From Candidatus Angelobacter sp. Gp1-AA117 (GTDB lineage Bacteria > Acidobacteriota > Terriglobia > Terriglobales > Acidobacteriaceae), in contig QHVI01000030.1 in assembly GCA_003223515.1 (NCBI GenBank), forward strand, positions 62,001 through 126,000: a DNA stretch of 64,000 nucleotides, in the 5' to 3' direction. The position numbers and the translations under genes are program-made. This document shows, piece by piece, positions 10,239 through 63,359 of this stretch. The first letter of the stretch is position 1, and each line of letters starts with the position of its first letter. The notes under the pieces were generated by a model. It did not search any database and was not told the DNA's origin. It saw only the letters and a list, made by a program, of their open reading frames with translations.

Positions 10239-10820
10239 AATAGGAATTCTAGAACATTTGGTGAATGCATCACGCCCAGAAATCCTTTCACAACCTCACA
10301 GGATAAAAGAGAATCCTTATGGAGCGCAGCCGCCGGGCCCCTATTGTGCGCAGCACTTGCGCACCATAGGGTGGAGGTGCCCTCGGCTGCGTAGGATAAA
10401 GATAAATCTTTCGTGAGTTGAAGAATTTAGACGAATAGTAGTGCAGAGCAAAGTAGGGCTGGCAAGGAGCAGATTACGTCCACTATCGCCTTGCACATAC
10501 TCAGCGCCGAAGGCGCGGCATTATTGAGCCCACGTCGGAAGACGTGGGTAATAGGTAAGAGGAAATTCAGAGCCCCCGGAGGGGCGGCACCGCCAGCAAA
10601 ACAAAAACGGCTGCGATGGAGAGCGCAGCCGTTTCCCGAGTTCCCTTTTCCCGTGTCTATCAAGAATGAGAACGTCCTCTTCTATTTCACCACCCAACTG
10701 GAGAATGAGGATCCAGCCGGCTTATGTATATATAGACGCAAGTTGTGCCCAAAAGTTTGTTAAGAAGTGTTGGACAACGGTTAATACCCGGTAAAACATC
10801 TTTGTTTCGAAGGAGCAATC
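10239..10820. repeat. Repeat-rich spacer
   Basis: No gene larger than the small one at 10821 is supported. The spacer holds a REP-like block at 10317-10395 (GGAGCGCAGCCGC ... CCTCGGCTGCG with an inner inverted repeat CCCTATTGTGCGCA / TGCGCACCATAGGG), a second dispersed repeat at about 10501-10560 whose inverted copy lies at 63061-63120 (core GCCCACGTCGGAAGACGTGGG split as a hairpin), and a bidirectional terminator-like hairpin at 10605-10634. Confidence 0.75.
10605..10634. terminator. Bidirectional terminator-like hairpin
   Basis: An 11-bp perfect stem, AAACGGCTGCG pairing with CGCAGCCGTTT, closes an ATGGAGAG loop. There are A residues before it and T residues after it, so it could act on either strand. 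No directly adjacent gene explains it. Confidence 0.45.
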
Positions 10821-33380: not shown

Positions 33381-33922
33381 ATCCCCACGATGGATGGGCT
33401 TGGTAGCGGGTAGCGCCAGTAGCACATGGTTGCATGATCCAGACCGGCAGCAAAAACACCCTCAATGGCCATCACCCTGAACGCCTCTGTATTGCTGTCT
33501 CCAAAATTCTTGTTTTTTGCAAAGAATTTCCGGCTGTTTTATTCGCGTCACCCAATCTTCTGATTCGCGTAAAATTCGCGTCATTGCCGTTATTCGCGGC
33601 TTATTTGCCTTCCTCTGCGTCCTCTGCATTGCTATATCCAAAATTCTTGTTGTCCTGCGAAGAATTTCATGCTGCTCTGACCTCCTTCCAGTTCCAGCTT
33701 TGGCGACCTGAAAATCTTGAGGAACAAACAGTGCCAGATTAAACACACATAAACTTACTTTTGCTACCTCTGCGTCCTCTGCGCCCTCTGCGGTGAAAGT
33801 CTTTGGTTGTGGCTCCACCACGCTGTTGAGCAACCGTTGAATCAGCGTCATCAGCGGCAAAAAATTCTGACTGCACCAAATAGCTTTGGATGTCACCACT
33901 GGTTTTGCTACACTTCACCTCC
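33381..33922. repeat. Spacer with dispersed repeats
   Basis: No gene is supported. Two hairpin units (33490-33535 and 33625-33670) share CCAAAATTCTTG ... GCRAAGAATTTC with the elements at 2140 and 38300. Degenerate CCTCTGCG tandem words stand at 33605-33625 and 33765-33800, and a fragment of the 2026/2191 repeat at 33825-33865. TTGGAT (33886) and TACACT (33909) 17 bp apart could be a weak promoter giving a nearly leaderless message for the next gene. Confidence 0.65.
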
Positions 33923-34723
33923 ATGTCGCCCCAGAATATTCGCCGTAACAAACTTATCTGGATCGGTCTTCTGCTCACCATTGCCGCAGTATTGAGCCAG
34001 GGGCTGTATTTCACCCGGCTCCCCGGACAGCATGTTTTTCCATGGCTCAACCTTGCGTTGGCCATTGTTGCGGTCATCCTGCTGACGATCGGCCTGCTGC
34101 GGGCCTTCAGGCAGCCAGACTTGTATCGTGGCAAGATTTCAGGCTCGATCTCCACGCTCCTGGCAGTGGTCATCCTCATATTCACTGTCACCATGTTTGT
34201 CGACGTCCGTAAAGTGCCGGCCTCTGCCGGAGCGCCTAAGGTTGGACAGAAGGCGCCTGATTTCATGCTCAGCGATATTCATGGCCAGAATGTCTCCTTG
34301 TCACAGTTGCTTTCCAGTCCCGAGGGAGGCGCACCGCCGAAAGCAACGCTGCTGGTCTTCTATCGTGGCTATTGGTGACCCTTCTGCACCCTCGAGTTAC
34401 GAGGCATTCAGAAGCAGTTGCAGGAATTTCAGGCCGCAGGAGTCAAGCCCGTGGCCATCAGCGTAGATACACCTGAGGTTTCCGCCAGGCTGTGCAGGAA
34501 AGCCGGTCTTACTTACACATTTCTTTCCGACCCCAAAGAGGATGTCCTTCGCCAATATGATCTGGTGCATGCGAAAGGCGGCCCCGGCGGCACGGACATC
34601 TCCCGCCCTGCGGAATTCCTGGTGGATTCCACCGGCACAGTGCGCTGGGTCAATTTCACTGAAGACATCCGGGTGCGCGCCCGGGCAGACGAGATGCTGG
34701 CTGCCGCCAGAGAGATCAGGTAG
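33923..34723 (+). CDS. Membrane-anchored redoxin, probable selenoprotein (in-frame TGA = Sec152)
   Basis: The reading frame is continuous from 33923 to 34723 except for one TGA at 34376-34378. Residues 10-93 contain three membrane segments. The AhpC/TSA-type redoxin domain follows (GQKAPDFMLSDIHGQNVSLS). The TGA falls exactly where this family has its first reactive cysteine: YRGYW-(TGA)-PFC, giving a UxxC motif with C155. The frame then continues with good redoxin text (GVKPVAISVDTPEVSARLCR, AEFLVDSTGTVRWVNF). A bacterial SECIS-like hairpin starts two bases after the TGA. It probably reduces peroxides or disulfides outside the membrane. A nonsense mutation is the alternative. Confidence 0.82.
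34376..34414 (+). promoter_or_regulatory. UGA codon plus bacterial SECIS-like hairpin
   Basis: After TGA (34376-34378) the sequence folds as CTTCTG (34381-34386) with CAGAAG (34409-34414), then CCTCG (34390-34394) with CGAGG (34400-34404), closing a five-base AGTTA loop. The loop carries GT, the feature recognised by SelB, and that G is separated from the UGA by 17 bases, within the spacing known for bacterial SECIS elements. The selenocysteine machinery genes are not in this window. Confidence 0.75.
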
Positions 34724-62848: not shown

Positions 62849-63359
62849 TACTCAGCACTCAGCCCCTGAACATCCTCATCTATCTCAACCTTCGCAGAGG
62901 ACGCAAGAAGGAAGGTTAAAAACTATAGAAGCGCAATCTCGTTGTGCTTTCACTCAAGTTATCTGAGAACATTCTGCCGCGCAGCCGAGGGCGGCTAATG
63001 TCACTTACTTAAGACAATTTAGCCTGATTGTGTCGCCCCTAACGGGGCTCTGTTCTTCAATCTAACCTTTTCCCACGTCTTCCGACGTGGGCTCAATAAT
63101 CACGCGCCTCCGGCGCTCGGCTTATCGTGACCTTTTCTGCGCTCTTTCCCAAGCTGTTGAGCAGTCCCATGCTTAAGTAAGTGGCATTAGCCGAGGGCGG
63201 CTACGCTCCACAAGATTTTTTTTGCTTTCCTTTGCGCCCTTCGCGTCCTTTGCGGTTCATTCGGATCATGTCGCAATTTATGCTCGATCCAGAACAGTTA
63301 ATCCCGCCGCAAAGGCGTGCTTAAGCCCGTATCATCTCCACCCGCTGTGGATGCTGCTT
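62849..63359. repeat. Repeat-rich spacer with MITE-like element
   Basis: No gene is called. The spacer holds the element 62997-63188, a degenerate CCTCTGCG-type array at 62895 and 63226-63260, and the inverted copy of the 10501-10560 repeat (63061-63120), which lies inside the element. An open frame at 63222 has no credible signals. Confidence 0.75.
62997..63188. mobile_element. MITE-like element with 14-bp target duplication
   Basis: The ends AATGTCACTTACTTAAG (62997-63013) and CTTAAGTAAGTGGCATT (63172-63188) are inverted repeats with one mismatch in 17. They are abutted by perfect 14-bp direct repeats AGCCGAGGGCGGCT (62983-62996 and 63189-63202), as expected for a target-site duplication. 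The 192-bp element has no open frame and must use a transposase in trans. Confidence 0.8.

Follow-up and report, generated by a model that had tools for sequence, protein, structure and literature searches.

A membrane-anchored UxxC redoxin with a predicted selenocysteine, encoded by a TGA-containing gene of Acidobacteriota and Verrucomicrobiota

Does the redoxin-like frame at positions 33923-34723 of the window (the whole stretch of 64,000 nucleotides of DNA analyzed here) represent a gene destroyed by a stop codon, or does it encode a selenoprotein? The initial annotation had favored the latter on account of one long frame interrupted by a single TGA, and translation of the 266 codons with TGA read as U reproduces this picture: the only such codon (34376-34378) specifies residue 152 of a protein of 266 residues and lies in the context LLVFYRGYW-U-PFC. 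The two features on which the following analysis is built are:

33923..34723, + strand: predicted selenoprotein coding sequence, 266 amino acids with Sec152, stop codon TAG
34376..34378, + strand: UGA codon predicted to be read as selenocysteine 152; TGA at this column in every orthologue inspected

Standard ORF calling divides the gene into two pieces (33890-34378 and 34418-34723), just as had been foreseen for an automatic annotation, and such a split is also what one would see in a redoxin gene recently broken by a nonsense mutation or a sequencing error, in which the TGA ends translation. Frames crossing a TGA are, moreover, common by chance. A mechanical length test (more than 70 codons including a start codon before the TGA and more than 50 codons after it) recovers 52 of them in the window, with the redoxin frame being the 18th by length; because of this abundance, which fits a broken gene, the open frame by itself is weak evidence. 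The proof that can be drawn from the DNA is homology on both sides of the TGA together with an RNA element, not the frame alone. A start codon at about the same place is possible in most orthologues, and inspection by eye found no ribosome-binding site standing out ahead of the gene. We also looked by eye through the 25 highest-ranking of these 52 frames for other selenoprotein genes in the window, and apart from the redoxin frame none showed an obvious redox motif.

To assess the fate of the TGA codon in related genes, we collected relatives from several sets of genomes. A sample of 297 genomes of the phylum contains 15 orthologues, including the gene in the window, and TGA is present at the column in all of them (15/15); in two of these (L027 and L033) the membrane part is truncated or encoded in a different frame. 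A scan of GTDB with patterns that do not touch the Sec codon detected 305 relatives, and 80 of the best 80 of these 305 possess TGA at the column; this set overlaps with the phylum sample, as some contigs occur in both. Judged from the record titles and the lineages that these names denote, the best 80 of 305 comprise 59 acidobacterial and 19 verrucomicrobial loci, one from Binataceae, and one labeled 'Deltaproteobacteria'; the latter two could be binning errors. Full-length matches were found in 10 of 61 close relatives (the own genome included), each listed with a TGA, and these are derived from seven of the nine members of the genus and from three genomes of other genera. In all seven close-relative loci that were inspected, own gene included, the TGA sits at the Sec column. 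In the copy of one member of the same genus (G510), a TAA stands one residue upstream of the conserved RNW start and is itself preceded by an ATG; it is possible that this copy uses a non-ATG start or is damaged. In the Verrucomicrobia group, full-length matches occur in three of 194 genomes, and a TGA is listed for each; two of these genomes (G297 and G301) are those of loci L066 and L082 and hence have already been counted. No full-length member with Cys at the column was met among the relatives checked, i.e., the best 80 of 305, the phylum sample, the close relatives, and the Verrucomicrobia group. In 15 distant homologues (L037-L051), seven have Cys at the Sec column and eight have TGA. 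The expectation of a Cys in place of the TGA therefore came true for distant redoxins, with closer homologues retaining TGA. In a tree of 63 redoxin domains the orthologues fall on one side of a branch, and the distribution of Sec and Cys over the tree requires two changes in all; since the support of that branch is only 56, a single orthologue group is the best tree rather than a firmly established one.

Three genomes were considered as candidates for the use of UAG as a Sec codon, and each was rejected. The TAG of G473 (TAG alone) follows an intact WCPFC, and this genome has no tRNA-Sec over the cut-off; in G243 (TAG alone) the column is occupied by Asp (DDTPVC) and the aligned stretch is free of stop codons; in G143 (TGA plus TAG) the column itself is TGA, the TAG being located immediately upstream of the ATG. 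The tRNA-Sec genes of G243 and G143 read UCA.

We also asked how the sequence on either side of the TGA has diverged from that of 58 orthologues. Downstream, with codons +4 to +9 set apart, the differences per site amount to 0.318, 0.230, and 0.617 at codon positions 1, 2, and 3, respectively; upstream, they amount to 0.470, 0.333, and 0.632. This third-position bias indicates that the stretch after the TGA is under protein-coding selection, and it is much like the bias before the TGA, contrary to what a recently broken gene would lead one to expect. A broken gene is likewise hard to reconcile with the finding of this TGA in every orthologue inspected, in records titled Acidobacteriota as well as Verrucomicrobia, and we consider this explanation next to inconceivable.

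The second element of the argument is an RNA structure directly behind the TGA:

34390..34404, + strand: SECIS-like apical hairpin, formed by CCUCG (34390-34394), the loop AGUUA (34395-34399), and CGAGG (34400-34404)
34381..34414, + strand: lower stem of the hairpin, in which 34381-34386 pairs with 34409-34414; weakly conserved in relatives

In bacterial SECIS elements, a hairpin is positioned just 3' of the UGA and carries a G near the beginning of its small apical loop. Folding of the segment 34376-34420 yielded -14.0 kcal/mol, compared to a mean of -7.5 kcal/mol for shuffled sequences (z -2.8; 1 of 200 shuffles as good), and gave the two-stem hairpin with a GU in its five-base loop that the initial annotation had described: the G of the AGUUA loop (34396) is separated from the TGA by 17 bases. 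The redoxin gene hence possesses a hairpin directly downstream of its UGA with an early G in a small apical loop.

Conservation of this SECIS-like element was studied in 81 loci, i.e., the gene in the window and 80 GTDB loci. All five pairs of the inner stem are intact in the 81 sequences, and two of the pairs exhibit changes on both sides, so that the element is conserved in relatives with compensatory change. The synonymous difference at codons +4, +5, and +6 is 0.00 over 77 genes, compared to mostly 0.4-0.8 elsewhere. The Glu codon of the loop is GAG in 81/81 loci, although GAG makes up 51% of the Glu codons elsewhere in these genes, and the codon that follows is TTA or TTG in 78/81 loci, codons that account for 22% of the Leu codons. 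Where residue +5 is Ser, its codon is TCC and is combined with the Arg codon CGG (62/62 loci); at the loci with Leu, CTC is used and Arg is encoded by CGA in 17 and by CGG in 2 of 19. Through these codon choices the inner stem is kept paired. In 500 shuffles, none matched the observed values for the cells paired, the cells with two-sided change, or the covariation score, and 7 matched the observed number of pair types; the number of pairs with two-sided change was matched in 91 of the 500, a control that the observed value does not exceed. Versions of the hairpin slid along the sequence reach 38-58% pairing compared to the 76.6% observed, and their scores are lower as well. The switch from TCC/CGG to CTC/CGA is confined to one clade of the protein tree, and the two-sided stem changes consequently represent about one event. 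When the window sequence is taken as the reference, 98 of 207 codons for the same residue at +4 to +9 differ (0.47, compared to 0.58 elsewhere), because the window sits in the switched clade. For the lower stem as drawn from the window sequence, 59.1% of the cells are paired across relatives. In two distant orthologues (L035 and L036) the TGA is present without the AGUUR hairpin, and for this reason their recoding signal may differ.

Recoding of UGA would depend on dedicated machinery, and the initial annotation had assumed that SelB and SelC are encoded elsewhere in the genome. Mining of the genome from which the window is derived (6.48 Mb, 206 contigs, rated 100% complete) bears this out: SelA (547.3 bits), SelB (399.7 bits), and SelD (372.0 bits) are all present above the curated cut-offs, together with a tRNA-Sec (71.9 bits, anticodon UCA) that ARAGORN calls as Sec. 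The selD gene has one in-frame TGA itself in the context VKAAG-U-ASKL, which we take to be the usual Sec site of this protein. A third match in this genome exceeds the Rfam cut-off as well (48.9 bits), but ARAGORN calls it a tRNA-Ser; the Rfam tRNA-Sec cut-off is therefore not proof by itself. ARAGORN reports a second tRNA-Sec with a UCA anticodon (57.9 bits; L002:1501-1595, minus strand, G000 contig C190). Compared by eye with L001:1501-1593, its anticodon stem contains a paired change and there are more mismatches elsewhere, which suggests either a duplicate or a decaying copy; one tRNA-Sec copy was seen in G257, a genome of the same genus, at E 1e-9.

The same machinery accompanies the gene in other genomes. 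SelB is found above the cut-off in 15/15 orthologue genomes of the phylum sample and in all 18 genomes tested of the 21 with non-acidobacterial titles. A redoxin match is present in 112 of the 297 phylum genomes, and 74 of these have at least one TGA-containing redoxin among the matches listed; SelB occurs in 72 of these 74 genomes compared to 17 of the 38 others (Fisher p 1.7e-10; among the matches listed), where a TGA anywhere in the match was counted and its position at the Sec column was checked only in matches made into loci. G277 and G080, in which a redoxin match contains a TGA (counted anywhere in the match) but no SelB passes the cut-off, do not belong to the 15 orthologue genomes. 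In the 14 other orthologue genomes, a tRNA-Sec match over the Rfam cut-off was detected in each, and ARAGORN confirms a tRNA-Sec in 13 of them; for G201 (84% complete, with SelB; L145) a single match was obtained at E 1e-9 (55 bits), and ARAGORN calls it a tRNA-Ser. Six comparison genomes, chosen for the presence of a redoxin with no TGA among the matches listed and no SelB, gave no tRNA-Sec over the cut-off (0/6).

These data also bear on the possibility that the UGA is translated as a standard amino acid such as Trp, or is passed by leaky read-through without selenium. The frame would be open under any such reading; however, eight of the orthologous genes terminate at a TGA themselves, distant homologues carry Cys at the column (7/15), the genome encodes the machinery for Sec, and the SECIS-like element is conserved. 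We regard translation as a standard amino acid as highly improbable. Taken together, 33923-34723 is almost certainly a selenoprotein gene, with an in-frame UGA flanked by conserved coding sequence on both sides. The interpretation given in the initial annotation is supported overall, and its checkable predictions came true: neither a lack of the machinery, nor other stop codons at this column in sister species, nor a base error was seen. The recoding signal and its conservation can be read from the DNA, and from them we infer the incorporation of selenocysteine: the hairpin just after the UGA would recruit SelB with Sec-tRNA, selenocysteine would be inserted at residue 152, and translation would continue to the TAG.

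What kind of protein would be produced? The following features were assigned to it:

33950..34207, + strand: three predicted TM helices (residues 10-32, 42-63, and 71-95), from the helices of the AlphaFold2 model and hydropathy
34241..34648, + strand: AhpC-TSA (PF00578) thioredoxin-fold domain, residues 107-242, E 6.4e-32
34385..34387, + strand: Cys155, second residue of the UxxC motif, invariant in alignments A1 and A2
34607..34609, + strand: Pro229, at the position of the catalytic Arg of true peroxiredoxins; P in 58 of 59 rows, with one gap

The PF00578 domain scores 110.6 bits, compared to a cut-off of 26, and together with the UxxC motif it places the protein among the Prx-like UxxC selenoproteins; 13 NCBIfam models match the protein, and for none is the model's own cut-off reached. 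The AlphaFold2 model (mean pLDDT 92.6, pTM 0.86) consists of three long helices followed by a thioredoxin-type fold, and in the 59 rows of alignment A2 three hydropathy segments are found in 55, two in three, and four in one. Positive charge favors the cytoplasmic side of a membrane (the positive-inside rule). On average, there are 2.2 K+R residues in the N-terminal segment, 1.2 in the loop joining helices 1 and 2, 4.1 in the loop joining helices 2 and 3, and 2.6 following helix 3, a distribution that favors a location of the redox domain outside the cytoplasm; judged from these charges, the AhpC/TSA domain should face the periplasm.

The chemistry of the predicted active site can be read in two ways. 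According to the initial annotation, the TGA replaces the first reactive Cys of AhpC/TSA redoxins. This holds for an alignment with the CxxC of ResA and thioredoxins, as the first Cys of the WCPHC motif in a ResA structure falls on Sec152, but not for true peroxiredoxins: in profile alignments, Sec152 falls on the Thr/Ser of their TxxC motif, and their peroxidatic Cys corresponds to Cys155, three residues later. The same alignments place Pro229 on an AhpE residue that we take to be its catalytic Arg (an R116A structure is among the Foldseek matches), and the position of Pro229 is presumably that of the cis-Pro in thioredoxin-like oxidoreductases. Instead of the T/SxxC(U) site and catalytic Arg of peroxiredoxins, the protein hence possesses UxxC and Pro229. 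It might nevertheless act as a selenium-containing peroxiredoxin, in which peroxide attacks Cys155, with Sec152 as the resolving residue, or Sec152 directly; its nearest relatives in sequence and fold are indeed the Bcp and AhpE peroxiredoxins, with Bcp4, BcpB, and AhpE as the best solved Foldseek matches (3hjp, 5epf, 4x1u). Besides the two substitutions at the active site, paralogues from the own genome speak against this. Six of its 14 AhpC-TSA matches contain a TGA, the read-through motifs being TSG-U, TGG-U, SPT-U, W-U-GC (TlpA-like), YG-U-IFC, and that of the gene in the window. In the five besides the latter (L163, L164, L166, L173, and L175) the TGA is at a likely redox position, and in TSGU, TGGU, and SPTU it is, by eye, at the apparent peroxidatic position, which supports a different chemistry for the window protein. 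We deem a peroxiredoxin function possible but rather doubtful. The paralogues further suggest a predicted selenoproteome rich in redoxins, and with it a wide use of selenium in the redoxins of this organism.

Since Sec152 replaces the Thr/Ser and Pro229 the catalytic Arg, we favor a thiol-disulfide oxidoreductase with a three-helix anchor and a periplasm-facing domain over a classical peroxiredoxin, and hold the disulfide-oxidoreductase reading of the chemistry to be somewhat probable. In such an enzyme, the Sec152-x-x-Cys155 pair would probably cycle between the selenolate/thiol and selenenylsulfide states, and the substrates reduced at the membrane surface would be disulfides or sulfenic acids derived from peroxides; Sec would presumably act as the attacking nucleophile.

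The genomic surroundings were inspected by clustering the flanking ORFs of the 81 loci. No redox-related neighbor was found repeatedly next to the gene in these 81 loci; the two commonest clusters (named by eye), an OPT-like transporter upstream and a YchF-like GTPase downstream, were found in 14 of the 81 loci each, and a conserved operon partner was rejected. The locus in the window is in none of the 22 flank clusters listed. Upstream of the gene (33560-33800) we noticed by eye repeats of the type 'cctctgcgtcctctgcg', and similar letters are seen by eye immediately ahead of the tRNA-Sec gene of L001. Acido-Lenti-1 RNA matches above the Rfam gathering score lie at 10503-10548 (minus strand) and 63072-63117 (plus strand).

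PF00578 selenoproteins with a UxxC motif ('Prx-like 1', thiol:disulfide oxidoreductase) already appear in a list from 2008 (PMC2398784, in the text available), and the available parts of two further papers tabulate them as well (PMC9312934, PMC13188914). The accessible portions of the literature (PMC13188914, PMC9312934, PMC5330540, PMC12013277, PMC9402790, PMC2398784, PMC5029168) likewise record a UxxC protein named 'redoxin family protein' and a UxxS protein of cd02970. According to the accessible text of the deep-Sep paper, numerous Cys homologues exist for almost all selenoproteins, and the acidobacterium Occallatibacter riparius possesses three known selenoprotein genes (PMC12013277). The claim of a new selenoprotein therefore stands for the membrane-anchored group only and not for PF00578 UxxC proteins as such, which were listed in 2008 (PMC2398784). 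In the available text of the selenoprotein literature, we found no description of a three-helix membrane-anchored UxxC form; the fusion to three TM helices, the TGA in every member checked, and the occurrence in Acidobacteriota and Verrucomicrobiota were not found described there. That these proteins form a distinct membrane-integral redoxin family across the two phyla, with no Cys member and an obligatory selenocysteine, is a proposal to which we give even weight for and against; if true, the chemistry at the periplasmic face of the membrane would need selenium and not merely benefit from it. The enzyme would in any case be conserved in Acidobacteriota and Verrucomicrobiota and is easily missed because standard ORF rules split its gene, and the TGA in every member checked makes the group a natural system for studying what selenium does that sulphur cannot.

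With the known Prx-like UxxC selenoproteins, the protein shares the PF00578 domain with UxxC and a predicted redox role; however, the text available on them mentions no three-helix membrane domain, and the group studied here is without a Cys member among those checked. SelL-related proteins (NF040769) have a related redoxin fold, and their model matches 59/59 rows of A2 at E <= 0.001, but the window protein scores 49.8 bits compared to a cut-off of 120, and it lacks the UxxU motif that we take to be that of SelL. ResA is a membrane-tethered, extracytoplasmic protein. The W-C-P-x-C motif of a ResA structure aligns on the W-U-P-F-C of the window protein, which differs from ResA/TlpA by its three TM helices, by the greater proximity of its fold to Bcp- and AhpE-like proteins, and by a score of 50.3 bits, compared to a cut-off of 170, for ResA (NF002854). 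PrxQ/Bcp and AhpE, finally, provide the nearest solved structures, but their T/SxxC and catalytic Arg correspond to UxxC and Pro in the window protein.
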